The translations under genes were made by a program, and so were the position numbers. Below the pieces are notes generated by a model. It made no database searches. It was not told the origin of the DNA and was given only the letters and a program-made list of their open reading frames with translations. This document shows, one piece after another, positions 9,666-58,798 of a stretch of 64,000 nt of DNA (the stretch's first letter is position 1; each line of letters starts with the position of its first letter). Source of the stretch: Dehalobacterium formicoaceticum (GTDB lineage Bacteria; Bacillota; Dehalobacteriia; Dehalobacteriales; Dehalobacteriaceae); contig NZ_CP022121.1 in the NCBI RefSeq assembly GCF_002224645.1, forward strand, positions 3,378,501-3,442,500. The letters run 5' to 3'.

Positions 9666-9680
9666 TTTTGGTTCCTCCCC

Positions 9681-9711
9681 GAGGGACGGGGGGACAGGTA
9701 CATCGTCCCTC
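9681..9711. repeat. REP-like palindrome
   Basis: GAGGGACG and CGTCCCTC form an 8-bp inverted repeat around GGGGACAGGTACAT. A nearly identical unit recurs at 16805-16835. Similar GGGACAGG/CTGTCCC units near RAYT transposase fragments suggest one family of REP elements. Confidence 0.65.
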
Positions 9712-9839
9712 TATCAATGCATTTTGTGAAACAACAGTATAATAGGAATTTATGCTTCAACGAAAAAAAGGACCGTGCACCGATTTTTCATTTAGTGCAA
9801 CAGCCCTACTTCTACACATCTTCACAAATATTAATGTGG

Positions 9840-10409
9840 TTATTTCATCAGCTCTGCACCACTGTTCCATGCCTGCCCAACCTTATCGCCAATTGCGTAG
9901 TAACCGCTCTGGAACGGATCAAAGACAAAGGCATTCAGTTTCACTGGGTCTACATTTCCTTTTTCGTCAAGGACTGCTTCATCCGCCAAAACATTTACAA
10001 TCTCACCTAACACTCTAAAACCGTATTTCCCATTTTGAATTTCAACAACCCTGCATTCCAAAGTTACCGGAAATTCTTCAACGACAGGTGCATCTACTTT
10101 GTTGCTCTTTACGGCATGGAGGCCGCTTCGCTCAAACTTATCGAACATTTTATTTCCGGACGCAATACCAAAAAAGTCCGCTTCTTTGATATGGTCAATA
10201 TCTGCAATGCTAAGGGTAAATGCTTTACGCTCCTTAATATTTTTTGCCGTCTTATGGGTTTCATTAATGTTCAGTGCAACCATATTCTTTGCACATATGC
10301 CGCCCCACGCCATGTTCATAACATTGACGACATCGCCCTCACTGTAAGTGGCAATCATTAAAACTGGCATAGGAAACAAGTAAGGTTTTACTCCAAGGTC
10401 TTTTTTCAT
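9840..10409 (-). CDS. Flavin reductase-family protein
   Basis: The 189-aa FMN-binding split-barrel protein has the N-terminal MPVLMIATYSEGDVVNVMNMAWGG segment and the mid-protein FGIASGNKMDKF-type strand (DFFGIASGNKMFDKF), typical of clostridial flavoredoxin-like proteins. It reduces flavin or acts as an electron carrier in the cytosol. A good site, GGAGGT, precedes the ATG. It is monocistronic; no partner oxygenase is adjacent. The physiological acceptor is unknown. Confidence 0.88.
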   Translation of the reverse strand: MKKDLGVKPYLFPMPVLMIATYSEGDVVNVMNMAWGGICAKNMVALNINETHKTAKNIKERKAFTLSIADIDHIKEADFFGIASGNKMFDKFERSGLHAVKSNKVDAPVVEEFPVTLECRVVEIQNGKYGFRVLGEIVNVLADEAVLDEKGNVDPVKLNAFVFDPFQSGYYAIGDKVGQAWNSGAELMK

Positions 10410-14328: not shown

Positions 14329-14519
14329 ATTATACTCTTTGGATAATCCCCCTGCAAATTCCCGTCAACCTCTCAATTTGTCTAATTGATAAGCCATAAA
14401 CTTCCTTCAGATCCTTTAAATATAAATTTCTCTTATTTGCGTCAAACCTTTGCAAATCTAGCGCATGATATACATGGCAATGATCCTTGATTATTTTTTG
14501 GGCATTTTCATCTGTTAAC
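14329..14519 (-). pseudogene. RAYT (REP-associated Y1 transposase) C-terminal fragment
   Basis: The frame contains LTDENAQKIIKDHCHVYHALD, ending LYLKDLKEVYGLSIRQIERL and TGICRGIIQRV. The C-terminal helix-turn-helix LSIRQIERLTG is typical of REP-associated tyrosine transposases. The upstream catalytic domain is absent because IS3 copy 1 begins exactly at 14520. REP-like sequence (GTGCCACGGGGACGGGGGTC) lies immediately downstream. Confidence 0.75.
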
Positions 14520-26216: not shown

Positions 26217-28435
26217 TAATAGCTACCCTATGAAATTACACCATTCTCAAACGGTTTTAGTAATGAAAAATCAACCTTCCTAGTTTTGCTACCCTATGAA
26301 ATTACACCATTCTCAAACCCTGTGAGGGCGTTTTGGAAGCGTTTTTGAGTTTTGCTACCCTATGAAATTACACCATTCTCAAACAGGGATTATGCTTTAT
26401 TCCCTCATCTTTACGTTTTGCTACCCTATGAAATTACACCATTCTCAAACTGACCTGTGCAAGATGGATGAATACATCAAGTTTTGCTACCCTATGAAAT
26501 TACACCATTCTCAAACTTTTAACAAGTTGTTATTCGCTGAATTCATAGTTTTGCTACCCTATGAAATTACACCATTCTCAAACTTTCAATTTGCGCATAA
26601 AAAGCATTTGTTTCTGTTTTGCTACCCTATGAAATTACACCATTCTCAAACGTATTACTGACGGGATGCTAAACATTGCAAGTTTTGCTACCCTATGAAA
26701 TTACACCATTCTCAAACTCAATACTTGACCTGCCGCCGGTGCTAGACGTTTTGCTACCCTATGAAATTACACCATTCTCAAACTCGCTCGAAGTGCTTGG
26801 AATCGGCGCGCTGGTTTTGCTACCCTATGAAATTACACCATTCTCAAACATCGTCTAGCCTTGCATCGTAGTCCTCTCCGTTTTGCTACCCTATGAAATT
26901 ACACCATTCTCAAACTATGAGGTGCCGGACATCAGCCCTAATGTTGTTTTGCTACCCTATGAAATTACGCCATTCTCAAACTGAACTACCGGAGGAGCCG
27001 CTTGATTTATTGTTTTGCTACCCTATGAAATTACACCATTCTCAAACAACCACGCCAACGGCAGCATGGGCCTTTAGGTTTTGCTACCCTATGAAATTAC
27101 ACCATTCTCAAACTGCACTGGTTGAATATAGAAACGGTGACGAGTTTTGCTACCCTATGAAATTACACCATTCTCAAACGCTTCCCTGGCGTAACTTCCT
27201 GCTGCCGATAGTTTTGCTACCCTATGAAATTACACCATTCTCAAACACAATACTTAGCCCCTCATTGGCCAAGAAAGTTTTGCTACCCTATGAAATTACA
27301 CCATTCTCAAACTACTCATTGATATTGATGCCATCTACAAACGTTTTGCTACCCTATGAAATTACACCATTCTCAAACCGACAATATTCTCATCACAGTG
27401 TTGCCTTTGTTTTGCTACCCTATGAAATTACACCATTCTCAAACCCTGGGGTACATCGTGCATACATCAACTACGTTTTGCTACCCTATGAAATTACACC
27501 ATTCTCAAACCAGATTGTGAGAGCGATGAAAATGACTGTGGTTTTGCTACCCTATGAAATTACACCATTCTCAAACGAGGAACCGGAGATTGCCGAGACT
27601 GAGAAGGTTTTGCTACCCTATGAAATTACACCATTCTCAAACCTGTGGACGGGCCGGGCAAGGTTGTTACATGTTTTGCTACCCTATGAAATTACACCAT
27701 TCTCAAACTAAGGACATTCACACCTAATATACAAGTAAGTTTTGCTACCCTATGAAATTACACCATTCTCAAACTACCCGGCGACATTTAGTGTGTTTAG
27801 AATAGTTTTGCTACCCTATGAAATTACACCATTCTCAAACTGCATCATAGACTGTAATTATGTCAGTATCGTTTTGCTACCCTATGAAATTACACCATTC
27901 TCAAACTATTCCAGTTGCATAGTCTTTTAACACTGAGTTTTGCTACCCTATGAAATTACACCATTCTCAAACTTTGATTAATCACCAAATCAACCCCTTT
28001 TTGTTTTGCTACCCTATGAAATTACACCATTCTCAAACGCGTTCATAATCCTCGTCACGCATGGCCGGGTTTTGCTACCCTATGAAATTACACCATTCTC
28101 AAACTTGGAGGTGAAAAATCTTGGCGATTTCCGGGTTTTGCTACCCTATGAAATTACACCATTCTCAAACGGAAGGAGTTAGTTTCGGTCTAGGTTTCGC
28201 GTTTTGCTACCCTATGAAATTACACCATTCTCAAACGGAAGGAGTTAGTTTCGGTCTAGGTTTCGCGTTTTGCTACCCTATGAAATTACACCATTCTCAA
28301 ACGGGGGATAAGGGAGGCTGGGTTGATTGGGCGTTTTGCTACCCTATGAAATTACACCATTCTCAAACGGACAGATCCAGACCAAGCCACCCCGATTTAG
28401 TTTTGCTACCCTATGAAATTACACCATTCTCAAAC
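26217..28435 (-). CRISPR. Type II-A CRISPR array, 34 repeats and 33 spacers
   Basis: The 36-bp repeat, in transcribed (minus) orientation, begins GTTTGAGAATGGTG and ends GGGTAGCAAAAC. I counted 34 repeats with spacers mostly 30 bp (a few 31-32). The leader-proximal repeat is 28400-28435. The last repeat (26217-26252) has a degenerate 3' end, marking the trailer. One internal repeat (26946) carries an A-to-G change. Two adjacent spacers, at 28171-28200 and 28237-28266, are identical. Orientation follows from the leader and the cas gene order. Confidence 0.98.
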
Positions 28436-41148: not shown

Positions 41149-41970
41149 GTGAATGCTAATGTAATCGCCATCACTAACCAAAAAGGCGGTGTCGGGAAAA
41201 CAACCACCTGTGTCAATTTAGGTATAGGGCTAGCACTTGAAGGTAAAAAAGTACTGCTGATAGACACTGATCCCCAAGGCAGTTTATCTATCAGCTTAGG
41301 ATATCCGCAACCTGATAAACTCCCTATCACCCTCGCTACTGTCATGAGTAATTTACTGACGGACAAGCCCATTGATTGTAAAGATGGCATCTTAACGCAT
41401 GCTGAAGGTGTGGATTTACTCCCTGCCAATATTGAACTTTCCGGCATGGAAGTATCTCTCGTAAATGCTATGAGCCGTGAAACCGTCTTAAAACAATATA
41501 TCGACACTTTAAGAAAGCAATATGACTATGTGCTTTTAGACTGTATGCCTTCCCTTGGAATGCTGACAGTTAACGCCCTTGCTGCGGCAGACAGTGTGAT
41601 TATTCCTGTGCAGGCTCAATATCTGCCTGTTAAGGGATTGGAACAGCTCTTGCAAACTATTCATAAGGTTCGCAAACAGATTAACCCCAAATTGAAGATA
41701 GATGGTGTTCTGCTGACAATGGTGGACAACCGCACCAATTTTGCTAAGGACATCGGCTCTTTGCTCCGTGAAACTTACGGAGGCAATATGAAGGTTTTTT
41801 CGGTAGAAATCCCCCATTCTGTGCGAGCTGCTGAAACCAGTGCTGAGGGAAAGAGCATATTTGCCCATGACCCAAAGGGGAAAGTTGCTGAAAGTTATAA
41901 GGATTTGACGAAGGAGGTGTTGAAAATTGAAAAGCTCCGCCAAAAAAATAAGTCTGACATCGGTAGATGA
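41149..41970 (+). CDS. parA: ParA-family partition ATPase (ICE)
   Basis: The 273-aa Walker-type ATPase starts at GTG 41149, after AAAGGAGG. It has the deviant Walker A TNQKGGVGKTT (about residues 9-19), DTDPQGSLS and the A' motif DYVLLDCMPSLG. It partitions the element or its circular form, or regulates its operon, together with the overlapping ParB gene. It starts the conserved rightward ICE gene block. Confidence 0.95.
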   Translation: MNANVIAITNQKGGVGKTTTCVNLGIGLALEGKKVLLIDTDPQGSLSISLGYPQPDKLPITLATVMSNLLTDKPIDCKDGILTHAEGVDLLPANIELSGMEVSLVNAMSRETVLKQYIDTLRKQYDYVLLDCMPSLGMLTVNALAAADSVIIPVQAQYLPVKGLEQLLQTIHKVRKQINPKLKIDGVLLTMVDNRTNFAKDIGSLLRETYGGNMKVFSVEIPHSVRAAETSAEGKSIFAHDPKGKVAESYKDLTKEVLKIEKLRQKNKSDIGR

Positions 41971-42865
41971 TTTGTTTTCTACTGAAGAAAGCCGTGTCGA
42001 TGAACAAAGAGAAAAGATTGTTGAGATACCCCTATCAGAACTCCATCCCTTCAAAGATCATCCCTTTAAGGTAATTGATAATGAAGCAATGTTCGATACT
42101 GCTGAAAGCATCAAACAGTATGGTGTGCTTGTGCCTGCTATTGCAAGACCTAGAGAAGATGGCGGCTATGAACTTGTATCAGGACACCGACGTAAAAGAG
42201 CTTGTGAGCTTGCTTCGCTTGAAACCATGCCCGTTATTATCCGTAACCTTGACGACGATGCTGCCACTATCATTATGGTTGACAGCAATTTGCAGCGAGA
42301 AAATATACTGCCTAGTGAACGAGCTTTTGCCTACAAACTAAAACTATCTGCTATGAAAAGACAGGCAGGCAGACCGGCAAAAGAAAATGGTTCCCAATTT
42401 GGGAATAATTTATCGGGTAAAAAATCAAGCGAACTGTTAGCAGAGCAAACAGGCGAAAGCAAAAACCAAATATTTCGCTATATTCGCTTAACCGAGCTGG
42501 TCCCCGAACTCCTTTCAATGGTGGATGAAAAGAAAATTGCCTTTAACCCGGCAGTGGAACTGTCCTATCTAAAATCAGATGAGCAACTCCTTTTGATTGA
42601 TGCAATGGATACAGAACAATCTACCCCTTCTCTTTCACAGGCTCAGCGACTCAAAAAATTCAGTGCAGAAGGCAACTGCACACTTGAGGCGATGTGTGCC
42701 ATTATGAGCGAGGAAAAGAAAGGTGAACCCGATAAAGTTACACTGACTGGCGATAAAATCAAGAAGTACTTTCCTAAGAACTACACCCCGCAACAAATGG
42801 AGGCTACGATTATCAAGCTCCTAGAAGGGTGGCACAAAAAACGTACACAAGATCAAGAACGATAG
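41927..42865 (+). CDS. parB: ParB-like nuclease-fold partition protein (ICE)
   Basis: The 312-aa protein starts at TTG 41927 within the parA end (44-bp overlap), behind AAGGAGG. It shows the ParB N-terminal box LVSGHRRKRACELA and VDSNLQRENILPSERA, then an HTH region (LAEQTGESKNQIFRYIRLTE). It binds a centromere-like site, not identified here. The overlap implies translational coupling with parA. Confidence 0.93.
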   Translation: MKSSAKKISLTSVDDLFSTEESRVDEQREKIVEIPLSELHPFKDHPFKVIDNEAMFDTAESIKQYGVLVPAIARPREDGGYELVSGHRRKRACELASLETMPVIIRNLDDDAATIIMVDSNLQRENILPSERAFAYKLKLSAMKRQAGRPAKENGSQFGNNLSGKKSSELLAEQTGESKNQIFRYIRLTELVPELLSMVDEKKIAFNPAVELSYLKSDEQLLLIDAMDTEQSTPSLSQAQRLKKFSAEGNCTLEAMCAIMSEEKKGEPDKVTLTGDKIKKYFPKNYTPQQMEATIIKLLEGWHKKRTQDQER

Positions 42866-42894
42866 AAAATCCGTTGTAAAAGGAGGTGATACGA

Positions 42895-43821
42895 TTGGCA
42901 GTTTTCAGAGTAGAAAAGACAAAGGATTACACCGTGATGGCAAATCATCATTTGCGAAATGTTGCGCTTTCCCTCAAGGCAAAAGGACTGCTCTCCCTCA
43001 TGCTTTCTCTGCCGGAAAACTGGGATTACACCACTAAGGGACTTTCCTGCATTTGCAAAGATGGTATTGATAGCATCAACGCCACCATCAAAGAGCTTGA
43101 AGAACATGGGTATGTTGTCCGAAGAAGAACACGAAACGAAAAAGGGCAACTCACCAGCATAGAATATACAATTCTTGAGCAGCCTCAACTCCTTGATAAT
43201 AGCGAGCTTTCACCTAAACGGGAAAATCCAATCTTGGATAAGCCAATATTGGATAACCCAACACTGGAAAAACCTATATTGGAAAAACCTAAACTGGGTG
43301 AACCTATCTTGGTAAAACCCCACCAATTAAATACTAATACATCAAAGACTAATTCATTAAATCCTGATGTATTAAATATTGATTCATCAAATCCTTATCA
43401 ATCAAATCCTAATCCAATAAAAAACTTCCCTCAAAAACGGATTGGATATGAGGAGATAGGATGTGATACTGCCCAAGAAGTAAAAGAAATGGTCTTGGAA
43501 AACCTTGAATATGAGTGCATCAGTCAGCGCTACAATGACGATCGCCTCGATGAAATTGTTGATCTCATGGTGGAAACATTATGTTCGACCAAGCCTACAA
43601 TCAACATTGCAGGTGAAGAATATCCTGCACAGCTTGTCAAAGAAAAGCTTCTTCGGATAAATAGCTCGCATATCGAGTATGTGTTTTTCTGCCTTGATAA
43701 GAATACCACTTACATCCGCAATATTAGGCGTTACCTTCTTGCCACCCTTTTTAATGCGCCATCCACCATTGACCATTACTATACTGCACTGGTGAAACAT
43801 GATTTTGGTGGCAGGCCATAG
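42895..43821 (+). CDS. Replication-initiator-like HTH protein (DUF6017 type) of the ICE
   Basis: The product of about 308 residues starts at TTG 42895, eight bases after AGGAGG (an in-frame GTG at 42886 lies inside that site). The N-terminal part (MAVFRVEKTKDYTVMANHHL, LKAKGLLSLMLSLPENWDYT) is a winged-helix DNA-binding domain. The linker (about 112-174) is built of pentapeptide repeats. The C-terminal part (EYECISQRYNDDRLDEIVDL to the end) matches the DUF6017-like domain of ICE initiators. Possible role: initiator for autonomous replication of the circular ICE. Confidence 0.82.
   Translation: MAVFRVEKTKDYTVMANHHLRNVALSLKAKGLLSLMLSLPENWDYTTKGLSCICKDGIDSINATIKELEEHGYVVRRRTRNEKGQLTSIEYTILEQPQLLDNSELSPKRENPILDKPILDNPTLEKPILEKPKLGEPILVKPHQLNTNTSKTNSLNPDVLNIDSSNPYQSNPNPIKNFPQKRIGYEEIGCDTAQEVKEMVLENLEYECISQRYNDDRLDEIVDLMVETLCSTKPTINIAGEEYPAQLVKEKLLRINSSHIEYVFFCLDKNTTYIRNIRRYLLATLFNAPSTIDHYYTALVKHDFGGRP
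43228..43416 (+). repeat. Two blocks of six 15-bp direct repeats inside the initiator-like gene
   Basis: Block 1 (43228-43317) has six units of the form CC(A/T)-AT(A/C)-TTG-GA-AA, encoding P-x-L-x-K. Block 2 (43327-43416) has six units of the form T(T/C)A-AAT-CCT-AAT, encoding (L/S)-N-P-N-x. The constant 15-bp period resembles iterons embedded in initiator genes of some Gram-positive plasmids. Confidence 0.7.
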
Positions 43822-43856: not shown

Positions 43857-44342
43857 ATGCAAGAAGAAGTAGAAAATAAAACAGTGGCATTGGCTATCAA
43901 TGTTACTAAACTCACCGCTAGAGAGCTAAAGACAGCCATTCTCAAATATTTAGAATCTCAAAAAAATAGGGCCAGAAGTCGTGACAGCCCTAAAATTCCC
44001 CATGGCAAACAGAGCGTCAAATCTCTGGCCATACAAAATCAAGGCATGACAAGCATTGAGATAACGGATCAGAACATTAAGAGCTTTGAGCGCGTGGCAA
44101 GAAAATACGGTGTAGATTTTGCAGTTCAAAAAGACAAAAGTGTGATACCCCCAAAGTACATTGTGTTTTTCAAAGGGAGAGACGCCGATGCCATCACTGC
44201 TGCTTTCACTGAATTTACTGCCACAGCTGTTAAAAAGGCAGCCCGTCCGTCTGTGCTATCACAACTCAAGAAGTTCACCGAGCTTGTTAAAAACACCGTT
44301 TCAGACAGGATCAAGAACAAAGAGAAGGAGCAAAGTCGATGA
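43857..44342 (+). CDS. PcfB/DUF3801-family conjugation protein
   Basis: The 161-residue protein has the PcfB pattern: MTSIEITDQNIKSFERVARK, then YGVDFAVQKDKSVIPPKYIV and FFKGRDADAITAAFTEF. In pCF10, PcfB helps recruit substrate DNA to the coupling protein. AAAGGAGG precedes the ATG. It overlaps the VirD4 gene by ATGA, consistent with co-function. Confidence 0.9.
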   Translation: MQEEVENKTVALAINVTKLTARELKTAILKYLESQKNRARSRDSPKIPHGKQSVKSLAIQNQGMTSIEITDQNIKSFERVARKYGVDFAVQKDKSVIPPKYIVFFKGRDADAITAAFTEFTATAVKKAARPSVLSQLKKFTELVKNTVSDRIKNKEKEQSR

Positions 44343-46111
44343 ACGAAAAGACAAAAAGGCTGCTCCTTTTGAATATCCCATACCTTGTTTTAGCTTTGCT
44401 TTTTACAAAAGCATCTCAGGCATGGCGGTTTGCAGTAGGGTATGACTTTGCCAGTAAGTTTTTAAACCTGACAAGCGGTTTTGCTCTAGCCTTTGAAAAT
44501 CCCTTACCAAGTCTTCACTCCCAAGACCTGCTCATAGGCTTTCTATTCGGTGCTGTGCTTCGCCTTGTGGTTTATGTCAAAGGCAAAAACGCTAAAAAGT
44601 ATCGAAAAGGAATCGAGTACGGCTCGGCAAGATGGGGAAACACGGAGGATATCCGCCCTTTTGCAGACCCCTTATTTCACAAAAATGTAATCCTGACAAA
44701 AACAGAAAGTCTCACCATGTCGAGTCGCCCTAAAAACCCAAAACATGCAAGAAATAAAAATGTGCTGATTGTAGGCGGCTCTGGCTCAGGTAAAACACGG
44801 TTTTGGCTGAAGCCCAACTTAATGCAGTGCCATAGTTCTTATGTGGTCACTGATCCAAAGGGCAGCATTGTAGTGGAATGTGGAAAAATGTTGCTTCGAA
44901 ACGGCTATAAAATCAAAATCTTAAACACCATCAATTTCAAGAAGTCCATGCGCTATAACCCCTTCGCCTACATAAAAAGCGAAAAGGATATCTTGAAACT
45001 CGTCACAACTCTGATAGCCAACACAAAAGGTGAAGGTAAAGCGGGTGACGATTTTTGGGTCAAAGCTGAAACCCTGCTCTATACAGCACTCATTGGCTAC
45101 ATTTACTTTGAGGCTCCAGAAAATGAACAGAATTTTTCCACTCTCATCGAATTTATCAACGCCTCGGAGGTGCGTGAAGATGATGAGGATTTTCAAAATC
45201 CAGTTGACCTCATGTTTGAAACATTAGAAAAAAAAGACCCTCAGCATTTTGCTGTAAGGCAATACAAGAAGTACAAACTAGCCGCTGGCAAAACAGCAAA
45301 AAGCATACTCATCAGCTGTGGCGCAAGGCTTGCTCCATTTGATATCAAAGAGCTTCGTGAGCTGACTGCTTACGATGAACTGGAGCTTGATACCTTGGGA
45401 GACAAAAAGACCGCCCTCTTTATCATCATCAGTGATACTGACGATACCTTTAACTTCCTGGTATCTATGGCATATACGCAGCTTTTTAATCTCTTATGTG
45501 ATAAGGCTGATGATGTATATGGTGGCAGGCTGCCCATTCATGTCCGATGCCTGATTGACGAGGCAGCAAATATCGGACAGATCCCCAAACTTGAAAAACT
45601 CATGGCTACAATCCGTAGCCGTGAAATCTCTGCTTGTCTTGTATTGCAGGCACAAAGCCAGTTAAAGGCTCTCTACAAGGACAATGCCGATACCATCATC
45701 GGCAACTGCGACAGCATGATTTTTCTTGGGGGCAAGGAAAAAACTACCCTCAAGGATTTATCTGAAACCCTTGGCAAGGAAACCATTGATATGTTCAATA
45801 CTTCCGACACCAGAGGTGCACAAAGAAGCTATGGGCTTAATTATCAAAAGCTGGGAAAGGAGCTAATGAGCATGGATGAGCTTGCTGTAATGGATGGCGG
45901 CAAGTGCATTTTACAGCTACGAGGTGTTCGCCCGTTTCTCTCGGAAAAGTACGATATAACCAAGCATCCCCAGTATAAGTACCTATCCGATTTTGATAAG
46001 AGAAACACTTTCAATATTGAAAAATATCTATCTACAAAGCTAAAACCAAAGCCTGATGAGGTCTATGATGTGTATGAAATTGACCTCACAGACGAAACCG
46101 AAACCGCCTAA
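44339..46111 (+). CDS. VirD4/TraG-type conjugation coupling protein
   Basis: The 590-aa membrane ATPase has two N-terminal helices (about 7-24 and 62-80). Walker A is VGGSGSGKT (145-153), and the TraG-type motif HVRCLIDEAANIGQIPKLEK includes Walker B. It links the relaxosome to the secretion channel. The usual DUF-like C-terminal domain (EVYDVYEIDLTDE) is present. A terminator overlaps its stop codon. Confidence 0.95.
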   Translation: MNEKTKRLLLLNIPYLVLALLFTKASQAWRFAVGYDFASKFLNLTSGFALAFENPLPSLHSQDLLIGFLFGAVLRLVVYVKGKNAKKYRKGIEYGSARWGNTEDIRPFADPLFHKNVILTKTESLTMSSRPKNPKHARNKNVLIVGGSGSGKTRFWLKPNLMQCHSSYVVTDPKGSIVVECGKMLLRNGYKIKILNTINFKKSMRYNPFAYIKSEKDILKLVTTLIANTKGEGKAGDDFWVKAETLLYTALIGYIYFEAPENEQNFSTLIEFINASEVREDDEDFQNPVDLMFETLEKKDPQHFAVRQYKKYKLAAGKTAKSILISCGARLAPFDIKELRELTAYDELELDTLGDKKTALFIIISDTDDTFNFLVSMAYTQLFNLLCDKADDVYGGRLPIHVRCLIDEAANIGQIPKLEKLMATIRSREISACLVLQAQSQLKALYKDNADTIIGNCDSMIFLGGKEKTTLKDLSETLGKETIDMFNTSDTRGAQRSYGLNYQKLGKELMSMDELAVMDGGKCILQLRGVRPFLSEKYDITKHPQYKYLSDFDKRNTFNIEKYLSTKLKPKPDEVYDVYEIDLTDETETA

Positions 46112-53878: not shown

Positions 53879-54048
53879 GTCCATTTACTGAAAGCATCAA
53901 TAAAAAATCTACAAATAGAAAGCCTCAACCTGGGCAGGAAAACAAATCCCCTGCCCCTTCCACTGAAAAGTGTCCTAAAAAGGAGGACAGATCTCAGCAT
54001 TATCGTGGAATCATATTCCTCCAAAAAGAAAGGAAAAAAAGCGAATGA
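53875..54048 (+). CDS. 57-aa coupled small protein between DUF4366 and topB
   Basis: A GTG start overlaps the DUF4366 stop as GTGA. The frame reads SPFTESINKKSTNRKPQPGQ, then KSPAPSTEKCPKKEDRSQHY and ends QKERKKSE. Its TGA stop overlaps the topB start as ATGA. The double 4-bp coupling argues for real translation. The protein is basic, Pro/Ser-rich and probably disordered, with one Cys and no membrane helix. Function unknown. Confidence 0.6.
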   Translation: MSPFTESINKKSTNRKPQPGQENKSPAPSTEKCPKKEDRSQHYRGIIFLQKERKKSE

Positions 54049-54578
54049 ATTTAGTCATAGCAGAAAAACCATCTGTAGCACAAAGCATTGCTGCTGTTCT
54101 CGGTGCAAACAAAAGGCATGATGGATATATGGAGGGTAGCAACTATATTGTATCGTGGTGTATTGGACATTTGGTTGAGCTTGCCACTGCCGATACCTAT
54201 GATGAACGCTATGCGAAGTGGGATTATGCCGATTTGCCTATACTCCCTGAAAACTGGCAATATAGCATTTCTAATGGCAAAGAAAAGCAGGTAAGAATAC
54301 TAAAAGAGCTGGCAAATCGAAAGGATGTGACTGTTATCACATCCGCCACCGATGCGGGGCGTGAAGGTGAGCTGATTTTCCGGTTGGTCTATGAAAAAAT
54401 AGGCTGCAAAAAACCTGTAAAACGCTTGTGGATTTCCTCTATGGAGGAAAGCGCCATTGAGGATGGCTTTAAGAACCTCCGTGACAGCGGATATTATGAT
54501 GACCTCTATCACTCTGCACTTTGTAGAGCAAAAGCCGATTGGATTGTAGGCATCAATGCAACGAGATTGTTTTCCGTT
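54045..54578 (+). pseudogene. topB: Topoisomerase III, N-terminal part (split by IS21 copy B)
   Basis: The first 178 residues include the TOPRIM domain (MNLVIAEKPSVAQSIAAVLG and ITSATDAGREGELIFRLVYE) and DWIVGINATRLFSV. The insertion follows codon GTT 178, after which the frame runs into IS21 and ends at 54632. The gene would otherwise continue at 57257 to give about 691 residues. Confidence 0.93.
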
Positions 54579-54782
54579 TGTATTTGTCAACTTAAAATTA
54601 GGCCATATAGTCATTTAATTTTCGGCCACTAAGAAAAAAAAATTTAGTCGTTTCATAAGCATATTTAGTTTTCAAAGAGCATTGTTTCACGATGAATGCT
54701 AACGCGCTATCGCTTGTTACATCCTGTATAAATGTTTATCAAAAACATGATAAACCTTTATACAGGGTTATTGTTTTTTTCT

Positions 54783-55562
54783 TCATGCCAGTTGCTGTTG
54801 TTGTAACCACTCCTTCGTTTCTTTCATGCGGTACGAGTTTCCATTCATGTTGACGATGTATGACTGATGCGTCAACCGGTCAATCATGGCCGCCGTCATC
54901 ACGGGATCCTGAAAAATTTCACCCCATCGTTCGAAGGATAAGTTGGTTGTGATGATTGTCGATTTGCGACCAGCCCTCAGCGACAAATGGGTAAACAATA
55001 ATTCAGATCCTTCCTTATCAAAAGATATATAACCCATTTCATCGGCAATAACCAAATCATATTTTTCAAAGCGGTTCTGGAAGGCTCGAAGAGTTTGCTC
55101 TGCTCGGCATTCTTTAATCCGGTTAATGAGGAGGGGAACAGTTGTAAACCATACTTTATATCCCTCCAGGCAGGCCTTTAAGCCTAGCCCAATACTCACA
55201 TGCGTCTTGCCTGTTCCCGGGTTCCCCGCCAGAATAATGTTGCGCCCCTCCTGAATAAACTCTAATGTTTTCAGCTGCTTTAACTTCTTTTGGGCATCAT
55301 CTGGCAAATCCGCGATGACCAAATCTTCAAGGTACTTTTTATGTGTAAATTCAGCCAGACGAATGCGATTATGCCGCGAGGCTTCCCGACGAGCATCACA
55401 TTCCTTCTCCAGTAACTGCGCCAGAAATGCTTCATAACTGGCATCCTGCTGCGTTGACTCCCGAACTTGCTCATCCAAATGCTTACGAATCATAGGGAGT
55501 CTCAGTTCTTTGCTATATTCCAATATCGCTTCCTTAAACGCCTTGCGCGGCGCGTTACTCAT
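54783..55562 (-). CDS. istB: IS21 ATPase IstB, copy B
   Basis: The 259-aa AAA+ ATPase has an amino acid sequence identical to the copy at 19329-20108, with Walker A GNPGTGKT. It is transcribed against the conjugation operon. Its start overlaps the istA stop by 4 bp. Confidence 0.96.
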   Translation of the reverse strand: MSNAPRKAFKEAILEYSKELRLPMIRKHLDEQVRESTQQDASYEAFLAQLLEKECDARREASRHNRIRLAEFTHKKYLEDLVIADLPDDAQKKLKQLKTLEFIQEGRNIILAGNPGTGKTHVSIGLGLKACLEGYKVWFTTVPLLINRIKECRAEQTLRAFQNRFEKYDLVIADEMGYISFDKEGSELLFTHLSLRAGRKSTIITTNLSFERWGEIFQDPVMTAAMIDRLTHQSYIVNMNGNSYRMKETKEWLQQQQLA

Positions 55563-57148
55563 GCAACGTCCTCCTTTGCTTTTGGTGTATGGGTATCAAA
55601 CATGTCATCGTACATGCGAAGCTGCTGTGCTGACCGCTCTACAATCTCTTTTCCCGTTTTCGAGAGATTTGGTTGAACAACAGGCATCGCGTCACGATTC
55701 CTAGCACAAAGCACTTTAATTTTATCCGTAGTCACTTGAGCCGGATGAATTTTCTCCAGCTCCCGAATAGCTTGCTCGACTTCCGCAAATGGGACATCGT
55801 CTCGAATATATTGCAATAGCTGTATAAATTCCTTGTCTTGTTTGGTATAATATGTTTCGTATATTTCTTTTATCCTTTTAGGAGCCTGCTGCCATGCCGC
55901 ACTACCGGCAAATGCACCAGGTTTTTTCCTTAGCGTATCCAAATAATGATTCAGATCAAGCCGCCACTCGTGGTTGCCGGTTAATCGCACATGCTCCGCT
56001 ACCAAGGATTCCTGATGGAAGCATCGCACCCGGGTCGCATATGCTTTAATCATGATCGATTCACCTACCAAATGATCCGGTACTGAGTAACGATTCTGAT
56101 CAACGATGATGGTGGAATATTTGTTCACCCGTCCATAAATCACGCGAGCTGCATCAAATGGTGGAAGGGTGGGCAGCAATGCGGGGCGCTCTTCTTCCAA
56201 TCGTTCCTCCGCCGTCTGGCCGTTGTACTCATCATGGGACTTACGATTACGCTTAGTGCACACATCCTGCAAATATTGATTTGCCTCCTCCAGGGATTCA
56301 AATTCGTCCCGAAAAGCGAAGGCTTTTCGGCGAACGACCTCGACGCTTCGCTCCACATGACCTTTTTCGTTGCCCTTGCGAATATTGCAAAACCGATACT
56401 GAAAACCATAGTAGAGCGACAATTGAAGCAATCCTTGCGTCGGCTCCTTCTCCGTTCCAATAAACCTTTTCACCGCGACTTTCATGTTATCGTACACCAT
56501 GGTACGATACACTTGGCCGATATGCTGGAAAAACAGGGCGTGTGCTTCCTGAAAACACTCTGTTGTTTGTTTGGTGAACAGATAAGCAAAGCGATAGTTC
56601 CCGTAAGCCGTTGTGAATACGGCCATCTGAAAAACTTGAAATTTTCCATTAATTTTTAGTTTAACCTCACCCCAATCAAATTCGCAAATGTCTCCAAGTT
56701 CATACAGAGCCTTAATAAACGCTTCCTTTGGTTTCCGTTCCAAGCTTCTAATGGTTCGAAGAACGGTACTGTAACTTAGTTGAGTACCCTCGGCTTCCAG
56801 TGCTTCAAAGATATCAATGGCTTTTTTTTGCTGCTTGTGCCGCCCCTGATTTCGCTTAGTTTCATTCTCGTCAAGATAGAACTGGATCCTGTTCACAACC
56901 TCGTCAGTCATTTTTCTTTTGGGTCGAATGCCCACAGTATACTTGGGGGCAGAAGTGAGGGTGTCGACTAGTGCCTGGATATCTGCCGACCCGCTCGACA
57001 ATAATTGCTGTCTCCCTTCCTCATATTGTCCAATGTACTTTCCTACGGTGTCCCGATTGATCCCTGTTATTTTCGCAATTTCCCGGCGCGATTTCCCTTC
57101 ATGAATATGCATCATTAAAATTTGTTGCTTGATGTTCATTGTGATCAT
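55559..57148 (-). CDS. istA: IS21 transposase IstA, copy B
   Basis: The 529-aa transposase is identical in sequence to copy A, with the DDE residues intact (CEFDWGEVKL and onward). Identity between copies 37 kb apart points to recent transposition within or between the chromosome and this conjugative element. Confidence 0.96.
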   Translation of the reverse strand: MITMNIKQQILMMHIHEGKSRREIAKITGINRDTVGKYIGQYEEGRQQLLSSGSADIQALVDTLTSAPKYTVGIRPKRKMTDEVVNRIQFYLDENETKRNQGRHKQQKKAIDIFEALEAEGTQLSYSTVLRTIRSLERKPKEAFIKALYELGDICEFDWGEVKLKINGKFQVFQMAVFTTAYGNYRFAYLFTKQTTECFQEAHALFFQHIGQVYRTMVYDNMKVAVKRFIGTEKEPTQGLLQLSLYYGFQYRFCNIRKGNEKGHVERSVEVVRRKAFAFRDEFESLEEANQYLQDVCTKRNRKSHDEYNGQTAEERLEEERPALLPTLPPFDAARVIYGRVNKYSTIIVDQNRYSVPDHLVGESIMIKAYATRVRCFHQESLVAEHVRLTGNHEWRLDLNHYLDTLRKKPGAFAGSAAWQQAPKRIKEIYETYYTKQDKEFIQLLQYIRDDVPFAEVEQAIRELEKIHPAQVTTDKIKVLCARNRDAMPVVQPNLSKTGKEIVERSAQQLRMYDDMFDTHTPKAKEDVA

Positions 57149-57256: not shown

Positions 57257-58798
57257 CTCTATGGCCAAACCTTGAACGTGGGCAGAGTCATGTCTCCCAC
57301 ACTTGCCATGATTGTGGAGCGTGAGGCAGCAATCTCAGCATTTAAGCCTGAACCATTCTATGCCGTTCAGCTTGACTGCGGTACTTTTTCACTATCAAGC
57401 GAAAAGATTACGAATCAGCAGGCAGCAGAAACCTTACTCAAAGACTGTGATGGTCAAACTATTGCCATTTCTAGTGTGGAAAGCAAAGAAAAATGTGAAA
57501 AGCCACCCAAACTCTATGACCTCACCACTTTGCAACGAGAAGCAAACAGAAAGCTTGGCTTTACCGCTGAACAAACACTTTCTTACGCCCAAAGCCTATA
57601 TGAGAAAAAGCTTATAACCTATCCTCGTACCGACAGCCGTTATTTAACTTTAGATATGTCCGAAAGTATCCCTGCCGTGGCAAAAGCTGCAGCAGGGATT
57701 TTTATGCCCCAAAGCTTTGAGTTTTCTATATGTATTGAGCAAGTGACGGATAACAGCAAGGTATCAGACCACCATGCTATTATTCCAACCATTTGCATAC
57801 AAGACTGTGATTTTGCCTCGCTGCCCTTTGGTGAGCGTGAACTCTTACTGCTCATTTCCCTGCGTTTAGCGTGCGCCGTGAACGAGAGATGCAAATATGA
57901 AGAAACCACTGTCACAGCAATTGTCAGCGGTGTTGAGTTTACCGCAAAGGGCAAAACAATCCTTTCAGAAGGTTTTCATGACATTGAAAAGCACTATCAT
58001 GCCATGCAAAACGATAAGCAATCATTAGAAAAGGAAAAAGTGCTTCCAACCATTACGGCGGATGAATCCTTTGTAGTAAGAGCAACTATTAAAGATGGTA
58101 AGACCAGTCCACCTAAGCACTTTACTGACGATACCATTCTTGCAGCAATGGAAAATGCAAATAATGCACTGGAGGATAGCGAGCGAAAGGGTATCGGCAC
58201 ACCTGCTACCCGTGCAGGCATTTTGGAAAAGCTGATAAAAACCGAGCTTTTAGAGCGAAAAGGTGATAAAAAAGCGAAACACTTCCTACCTACCCAAAAG
58301 GGCGTTTCTCTGATTACCGTATTGCCAGAAGCAATCCAGTCTCCGCAGCTTACTGCCGAATGGGAGGAAAAATTAAAACGAATCGAACACGGTCTTCTGT
58401 CTCCCAACAGCTTTTTGGAGGATATTTCTCAAATGACTAAAATCCTCATCAAGACCTATACGCCAATAAAGGGATCTGATGTCCTGTTCCCCTCCACTCA
58501 GGAAGCAATCGGAAAATGTCCTCGCTGCAGAAATGACGTGACAGAGAATAAGAAAGGCTTTTGCTGCCTAAACAAGACCTGTGGCTTTGCTCTTTGGAAA
58601 GACAACAAGTTTTTTACCGCAAAAAAAAAGAAACTCACCAAAGCTATTGCCATTGAGCTTTTGAAAAACGGCAAAGCGAAACTCACAGGCTGTTATTCCG
58701 AAAAGACCGGCAAGACCTACGATGCAGTTGTTTTGCTCGATGATTCAGGCGGCAAGTATGTGAACTTCATTCTGGAGTTTGCATCTGACAAGGCATAA
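57257..58798 (+). pseudogene. topB: Topoisomerase III, C-terminal part (split by IS21 copy B)
   Basis: The 513-residue distal part starts LYGQTLNVGRVMSPTLAMIV (the family's QTP/RVxTPTL-like motif). It contains the active-site Tyr region LITYPRTDSRYL and IGTPATRAGILEKLIKTELL. It ends with a zinc finger (CPRCRNDVTENKKGFCCLNK) region of topoisomerase-type. Internal starts could produce a fragment lacking TOPRIM, which would not be active. Confidence 0.93.

Follow-up and report, generated by a model that had tools for sequence, protein, structure and literature searches.

A DNA-constrained array of 15-bp repeats inside an initiator-like gene marks the probable replication start site of a Tn1549-like mobile element in Dehalobacterium formicoaceticum

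The DNA encoding the linker of a replication-initiator-like protein of Dehalobacterium formicoaceticum contains two adjoining blocks of 15-bp repeats which are kept for their DNA sequence and, judging from sequence comparison, mark the probable replication start site of a mobile element. The gene was analyzed within a 64,000-nucleotide stretch of the chromosome (contig NZ_CP022121.1, positions 3,378,501 to 3,442,500 of the forward strand; hereafter the window, to which the coordinates below refer unless a locus is named). The features concerned are the following.

41149..41970, plus strand: ParA ATPase (AAA_31, E 2.7e-59)
41927..42865, plus strand: ParB (ParB_N, E 5.6e-19)
42886..43821, plus strand: replication-initiator-like gene, HTH_36 - linker - DUF6017 (311 codons from GTG 42886)
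42937..43185, plus strand: predicted winged-helix DNA-binding domain, residues 18-100 (AlphaFold2; residues 21-100 with pLDDT 82-93)
43216..43320, plus strand: block A, seven 15-bp iterons with the core GGNNAANCC and partly symmetric flanks TTGG...CCAA
43324..43338, plus strand: junction CAATTAAATACTAAT, directly after the last block A iteron
43327..43416, plus strand: block B, six AT-rich 15-bp repeats, a candidate duplex-unwinding region
43405..43806, plus strand: DUF6017 C-terminal domain (Pfam; the AlphaFold2 fold covers residues 196-307, 43471-43806)
43857..44342, plus strand: DUF3801 (PcfB-like) protein (E 2.7e-43; its pMG2200 counterpart is annotated as PcfB family)
44339..46111, plus strand: VirD4-type coupling protein (T4SS-DNA_transf, E 9.1e-54)

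The initiator gene is directly preceded by ParA and ParB and directly followed by the DUF3801/PcfB-like and VirD4 genes. The claim of the sequence-only reading, that the repeats encode the linker of an HTH protein lying beside parA/parB, agrees with this arrangement, as the gene that follows ParA and ParB is HTH_36/DUF6017 by Pfam. Beyond VirD4 the window encodes VirB4-like, CHAP and CD1107-like proteins, a topoisomerase in two pieces and a polyvalent ArdC/LPD protein, and a MobA/VirD2-type relaxase (PF03432, E 3.3e-32) is encoded just past its end (L365:8204-9589). Because the VirD4, VirB4-like, CD1107-like and relaxase genes lie downstream of the initiator, the region is assigned by its gene content to the Tn1549-like conjugation regions. 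The topoisomerase gene of the ICE is split (54045-54632 and 57272-58798) by an insertion of two ORFs on the minus strand (54783-57148); a 2366-bp stretch with the same ORF pair was found at L365:13266-15631 and L366:11153-13518, 100% identical throughout. Elsewhere in the window, at 26282-28435, there is a CRISPR array with a 36-nt repeat, comprising 32 exact copies of GTTTTGCTACCCTATGAAATTACACCATTCTCAAAC.

The likelier start of the initiator-like gene appears to be TTG 42895, because it stands behind AGGAGG (42881-42886) and relatives start with MAVFRVEK. Pfam analysis revealed HTH_36 (PF13730) at residues 28-77 (E 7.8e-7, 29.2 bits at a curated cut-off of 25) and DUF6017 (PF19481) at residues 174-307 (E 2.8e-43, 148.1 bits at a cut-off of 27); in several relatives the HTH_36 scores fall just under the cut-off (15.9 bits in phiETA3, 19.1 in NIIg3.2, 22.3 in pMG2200, 24.0 in pSNJS102 and pAT1). 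Among the PHROGs families, the protein matched the replication initiation protein phrog_4707 (E 5.2e-24) and the DnaD-like helicase loader phrog_186 (E 3.2e-17). The proline-rich linker is predicted by AlphaFold2 to be disordered (residues 104-192, pLDDT below 50).

Structural comparison of the N-domain model with VIA-align gave, among its best rows, 4pql (Z 8.7, rmsd 2.8, 79 residues aligned), 4pt7 (Z 8.5, 2.9, 78), 5kbj (Z 8.2, 2.5, 79) and 4pta (Z 7.7), with which other winged helices are tied, and a Foldseek search with the same model returned no match at E 0.001 or better. We take 4pql and 5kbj to be RepA structures as well, the latter being a Rep-DNA complex by its title. The entries 4pt7 and 4pta are named as Staphylococcus aureus RepA in PMC7145576. 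For the C-domain model (mean pLDDT 86.6) nothing was obtained in Foldseek under E 1 and VIA-align Z values did not exceed 4.5, which amounts to no convincing structural match; 4pqk ('C-terminal domain of DNA binding protein') reached Z 3.1 among unrelated rows. Sequence searches of the PDB gave no useful match. In the Pfam search of the window protein, neither RepA_N (PF06970, up to E 1) nor Bac_RepA_C (PF18008) was detected, the Rep of pUSA03 matching PF06970 at E 2.5e-32 in the same library; by Pfam, the window protein is not a member of RepA_N.

The units of block A, in register, start at 43216, 43231, 43246, 43261, 43276, 43291 and 43306, and those of block B at 43327, 43342, 43357, 43372, 43387 and 43402. 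Two consecutive blocks of six 15-bp repeats had been described in the sequence-only reading; both blocks, their six units each and their coordinates were recovered, and block A was found to have one more unit on its left side. Tandem Repeats Finder detected arrays with 15-bp and 30-bp periods at 43221-43320, and with a 15-bp period in each of 43329-43361 and 43359-43414. Six of the seven block A units fit GGNNAANCC, the one at 43291 being degenerate. The motif YTGGAWAANCC occurs six times in the 64-kb window, four times within block A, at 0.70 occurrences per shuffle (0/100 shuffles reach six), and TYAAATNCTNAT also six times, four of them within block B (1.05 in shuffles, 1/100 reaching six). 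The looser GGWWAAHCCNA is not in excess within the window (4 occurrences vs 1.9, 15/100 shuffles reaching 4), and all four of its occurrences fall inside block A. Far from the array, TTGGATAATCC was found twice more in the window, at 14339 and 16991, as single sites in mutually similar surroundings.

Synonymous recoding of the window linker, with codons drawn at the codon usage of the ICE genes, yielded on average 1.7 block A cores vs the 6 seen (12/5000 recodings reach 6) and about 0.1 block B motifs vs the 5 seen (0/5000 reach 5). All six leucine codons of block A are TTG or CTG, and the neighbouring ICE genes favour CTT and CTC. Both blocks are therefore under a DNA-level constraint that exceeds the demand of the peptide.

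Relatives of the gene were collected as 15 loci from genome contigs and by searches of whole genomes, plasmids, phages and viral contigs, three viral-contig searches contributing the best 80 of 481, 254 and 416 candidates, respectively. Matches in the own genome at 1.507 Mb (L003-L005) were discarded, being antisense to an unrelated repeat. The main count, made on both strands, covered 366 loci minus L123, L365 and L366 and comprised 352 genes, 10 of which had too short a linker and 184 of which were non-redundant. A plus-strand set (loci from L006 on read on that strand alone; 312 genes from 364 loci, 162 after removal of similar linkers) underlies the counts of phase classes, junctions, AT-rich tracts, lineage flanks, G-T combinations and HTH columns, as well as the comparison of divergent recognition helices and part of the symmetry statistics. 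The phase classes (97 phase-2 and 32 phase-0 genes) are selected samples with at least two in-phase cores in each gene, the phase-0 sample being mostly staphylococcal. Pentapeptide units were counted in 80 genes, that is, in 82 genes with distinct DNA minus L037 and L102, whose proline chain is under 3.

In the 184 non-redundant linkers we counted 601 GGNNAANCC cores vs 204.9 ± 8.5 after synonymous recoding, and a first pass over the 162 plus-strand genes had the same outcome (524 vs 174 ± 10). At least one core is present in 166 of the 184 genes; the remaining 18 have none, and some of them carry another repeat. The excess is also seen in the 33 genes outside the phase classes (23 cores vs 5.1 after recoding) and in an unselected, mostly staphylococcal group, the 45 genes most similar to the phiETA3 and clostridial-plasmid queries (117 vs 7.3 ± 2.6). 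The drift of the block A pentapeptide is unusual for a protein and easily described as DNA. In the 507 pentapeptide units of block A type, the residues L, T, Q, P, S, R and M predominate at position 2, where the codon, which precedes the conserved G, ends in G in 448 units vs 218 predicted by these genes' own codon usage: Gln is encoded by CAG in 73/73 cases, Thr by ACG in 71/79 and Ser by NNG in 28/32, Pro showing little excess (NNG in 31/44 vs 26.1 expected). The codon at position 3 starts with G in 446 of these units. In the 32 phase-0 genes, C is the last base of the codon following G[KENLFD] in 43 of 47 Thr (4.3 expected), 61 of 76 Ser (17.6 expected), 11 of 18 Pro (2.5 expected) and in the single Ala not at all (0/1).

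The same core is translated in different reading frames. Over the 184 genes, codon phase 2 accounts for 501 cores, phase 0 for 95 and phase 1 for 5: TTG GAA AAA CC is read as L-E-K-P in the window, GTT GGA AAA ACC as V-G-K-T in phiETA3 and GGA AAA TCC as G-K-S in pSNJS102, and the HTH domains of such distant phage and plasmid Reps are 36-42% identical to that of the window protein. The forward cores are concentrated in the linkers (407 in the 97 phase-2 genes and 94 in the 32 phase-0 genes), the HTH-coding DNA of the same two classes having 0 and 2 and the C-domain DNA 5 and 0; in reverse complement the linkers hold 37 and 15. Since the cores exceed recoding, change frame, are nearly confined to the linkers and stand mostly in one orientation, it is the DNA and not the peptide that is conserved in the linker. 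The sequence-only reading had raised, as an argument against itself, repeats that vary freely in DNA over a constant peptide; the opposite was observed, as the peptide drifts and GGNNAANCC stays, even across frames.

The commonest phase-2 13-mer, TTGGAAAATCCAA (34/424 units), has a dyad around the A-tract, and over 501 units from 137 genes the flanks are complementary in register at 0.491 of positions vs 0.17-0.30 when slid. With one unit per gene (118 genes), the inner two flank pairs reach mean z values of 6.0 and 6.4; these across-gene statistics are inflated, because the genes are related. Shuffling within genes gave z values of 1.3, 0.4, 1.9, 4.1 and 1.0; for phase-0 genes the across-gene values are 3.4, 2.5, 2.2, 1.4 and 2.9 and the within-gene ones lie between -1.9 and -0.6. 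As within-gene shuffling leaves little of the signal, flank symmetry is a property of lineages, mainly manifested between genes. Among 78 genes, the flanks TTGG..CCAA occur in 13, TCGG..CCGA in 9, ACGG..CCGT in 5 and CAGG..CCTG in 3; judged by two consensus bases on each side, 32 of these genes show full flank symmetry and 46 fall short of full complementarity. Because adjacent units have a common 6-nt spacer, either the core or this spacer may form the centre of the dyad. The columns of the HTH segment varying most with the base next to the core are L85, R77 and T86, in a comparison of 52 genes that ignores kinship and from which we draw no conclusion. By eye, genes with a divergent recognition helix (L186, L176, L197 and L200) carry other A-tract repeats in the linker, for example ATAGAAAATCA (L186) or GAAAATCAA (L197, L200); these repeats might represent a second iteron code, which we mention as a lead.

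The chromosome of D. formicoaceticum itself harbours a second copy of the gene, 61% identical to the first, which is also located behind ParA and ParB and has six linker cores. A second ICE-like region of this chromosome (L366 5518-8236, L002) shows the order ParA-ParB-HTH/DUF6017, the same core and mostly TTGG flanks. If the linker array does function as an origin, interference is to be expected between two elements that share their flanks within one cell.

At the transition from block A to the AT-rich tract, 54 of 99 phase-2 genes have CAATTAAAT no more than 25 nt away from their last core, and in all 69 junctions of these genes that fit the searched pattern the junction Gln is CAA (69/69), the Gln codon at position 2 of block A being CAG (73/73). 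In the 60 nt past the last core the AT content of the 99 phase-2 genes is 0.76 vs 0.62 expected from peptide and codon usage, and that of 35 phase-0 genes is 81% vs 74% expected. The consensus past the array reads CAAtTAAATActaAt in phase-2 genes and ACTACTAATAATAAT in phase-0 genes.

That the repeats are a DNA-constrained site follows from the statistics above; the use of the linker array as an origin is suggested by homology and by the architecture of the module. The N-domain and the core were found joined to three C-terminal Pfam domains (DUF6017, Phg_2220_C or DnaB_2) and, on a Leptospira plasmid, to a C-terminal region that matches no Pfam family; the HTH domain is the common factor that accompanies the core whatever the C-domain. 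In the record of phage 80alpha, a putative rep_origin (9674-9899) covers the homologous linker. The proposal of the sequence-only reading that the origin lies in the repeats within rep, as in some Gram-positive plasmids, is strengthened by a DNA sequence that persists through changes of the peptide and even of the reading frame, and the putative origin of 80alpha and the precedents of lambda, pSK41, TP901-1 and Tuc2009 point the same way; the array is best regarded as a candidate origin.

We consider it quite likely that the linker DNA is an intragenic iteron origin of the ICE, bound by the gene's own winged helix, with block B melting, DUF6017 taking part in loading and replication proceeding in theta mode. 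In this scheme the block A iterons, here mostly TTGG-AWAA-nCC, would be bound by dimers of the N-terminal winged helix, and block B, directly joined to block A, would be the AT-rich stretch that melts. The DUF6017 domain, tethered through the linker, would recruit the host helicase loader or primase. The linker DNA of the initiator gene would thereby act as the replication origin of the ICE, the excised circle replicating in theta mode ahead of transfer, reintegration or, given parAB, partition. Initiator binding, melting, helicase loading and ICE replication are thus presumed steps, as are extrachromosomal replication from the linker and segregation of the ICE by parA/parB, which the sequence-only reading had also envisaged; an ICE can persist without theta-mode replication.

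Intragenic iteron origins as such are already known. Rep of pSK41 binds four Rep boxes situated centrally within rep, the origin encoding the Rep linker, and pSK41 plasmids carrying the linker DNA in cis are rescued by proteins without the linker (PMC5703833); most characterized RepA_N iterons are semi-palindromic repeats converging on a poly-A tract (PMC7145576). The RepA_N replicons pSK41 and pTZ2162, with Rep boxes central in rep, resemble the window gene in encoding a winged-helix N-domain, a linker and a C-domain, the linker DNA being the origin in these replicons and a candidate origin in the window gene, and their inverted repeats around an A-tract have a counterpart in the iterons of DUF6017 genes (TTGGAAAATCCAA, flanks complementary at 0.491 in register). 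Unlike them, the window protein has no PF06970 or PF18008, and its core is GGNNAANCC and not the pUSA03-type box GTGTCAAAAGGACAC. The pUSA03 Rep (L123 101-1060) is RepA_N plus Bac_RepA_C by Pfam, and its linker repeats, spaced at 23 bp, contain GTGTCAAAAGGACAC; in contrast to this Pfam result, PMC5703833 lists pUSA03 among plasmids with the pPR9-type hybrid. According to the same source, pPR9 differs from pSK41 over a region of about 500 bp that spans the RepA_N domain and the origin, its N-domain is a pfam13730 HTH and a pPR9 mini-replicon works. The plasmid pPR9 shares with the window protein the HTH_36 (pfam13730) N-domain, whereas its C-domain is of the pSK41 type and not DUF6017.

In lambda, the ori within gene O consists of four 18-bp iterons with 38 bp of AT-rich DNA adjoining them (PMC3349717); iterons next to an AT-rich stretch inside an initiator gene are common to lambda O and the window gene, which differs in having seven 15-bp units and six 15-bp AT-rich repeats. 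The O-like families of PHROGs match the window protein weakly (best E 8.1e-4). The Rep proteins of TP901-1 and Tuc2009 bind direct repeats in their own genes which serve as ori (PMC8965321), a layout comparable to the one proposed for the window gene. The replisome organizers of the S. aureus phages 80alpha and phiETA3 have a related HTH, identical in the two phages and 37% identical to that of the window protein, and the same core, but in another codon frame, and the C-domain of phiETA3 is Phg_2220_C.

Enterococcus faecalis pMG2200, which presumably carries Tn1549, has a DUF6017 relative with a six-copy repeat family spaced at 15 bp, and this relative adjoins PcfB, VirD4, Maff2 and VirB6; unlike the window, parA/parB are not among the listed features of that stretch. 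Episomal replication of Tn1549-family ICEs was already suggested from their RepA_N and ParA genes (PMC4701971), ParA being present in all such ICEs of that study, whereas in our comparison the gene is directly preceded by ParB in 13 of 74 relatives. Four plasmid records with the module (pSNJS102, pAT1, CP026602 and OY725837) gave no RepA_N or Rep_3 match, the RepA_N half of this result being weak, as the RepA_N control matched nowhere. Among 143 plasmid records, 50 from Leptospira contain matches to the first two thirds of the window protein, which are possibly replication genes; pDO6 of Leptospira weilii (L119 2355-3572) encodes an HTH_36 protein with a few linker cores.

Other functions of the array deserve consideration. 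Iterons commonly serve autoregulation, incompatibility or handcuffing, and the array could be a binding site of the protein for these purposes, with the ICE replicating by its relaxase from oriT. The MobA/VirD2-type relaxase encoded downstream fits this idea, and intragenic binding could block transcription; yet the array begins 0.3 kb into the gene, away from the promoter, YTGGAWAANCC elsewhere in the window amounts to two distant single sites, behind the array comes an AT-rich tract that is itself constrained as DNA, and the homologous place in 80alpha is annotated as a putative origin. We regard this possibility as unlikely. Plasmid centromeres are often repeat arrays, and the position of the gene directly behind parA/parB would suit a centromere of the adjacent ParB. 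However, among 74 DUF6017 relatives with at least 1200 nt of upstream sequence, a tblastn search at E 1e-5, which a divergent ParB could escape, detected the window ParB directly upstream in 13, elsewhere in the available sequence in 2 and nowhere in 59, and 58 of these 59 keep at least one core (mean 4.05, vs 5.77 in the 13 with ParB upstream). Moreover, phage Rep genes share the core, and between 40 and 47 kb the sites closest to canonical parS carry 4 mismatches and are located outside the array. As most relatives show no ParB match upstream, a ParB centromere is very improbable, and partition looks like an optional add-on, ParB being directly upstream in just 13/74.

A constraint acting on RNA, by which small hairpins in the mRNA would control initiator synthesis or copy number, is compatible with the ability of symmetric cores to fold and with the folding of the window linker, which is better than that of shuffles (z -3.45, 0/200 shuffles as good). 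Against it, G-T combinations in the flanks are below shuffles (z -5.2, -3.7, -0.4, -2.4 and -0.1), like any mismatch, and there is thus no sign of tolerated G-U wobble pairs; within-gene compensation is little, and Rfam gave no match, which makes such hairpins hardly credible as the cause. Finally, a proline-rich linker maintained for the protein and homogenized by slippage would agree with the predicted disorder and with the variable number of repeats, but synonymous sites are constrained well past codon usage and the same DNA, read in two codon frames, gives unrelated peptides. The probability of this explanation is close to nil, the observations already contradicting it.

The preferred reading thus remains that of an origin within the initiator gene. 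In the open-licence literature searched, no paper found mentions DUF6017, and neither such origin placement in DUF6017 initiators of Tn1549-like ICEs nor one core common to ICEs, phages and plasmids across frames, with lineage-specific flanks, was found in print; replication in Tn1549-related ICEs had earlier been suggested from gene content (PMC4701971). A broader view, for and against which we see the balance as about even, is that one 15-bp iteron code on one winged helix has been distributed over Tn1549-type ICEs, phages and plasmids, combined with interchangeable C-terminal loaders. The linker peptide would be largely a by-product of the origin DNA, whose reading frame can even change, and the symmetric arms around the fixed core would be a lineage-specific address determining incompatibility; on this view Tn1549-type ICEs replicate in theta mode as phage-like replicons. 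The analysis locates a candidate origin with single-base precision in the Tn1549-related ICEs of Clostridia, which form a common group, and the plasmid-like replication of such ICEs becomes testable with a single recoded linker. It also predicts which ICEs, phages and plasmids may have a common initiator specificity. The linker provides a clear case in which an overlapping DNA function dictates part of a protein, even leaving its reading frame free to change.
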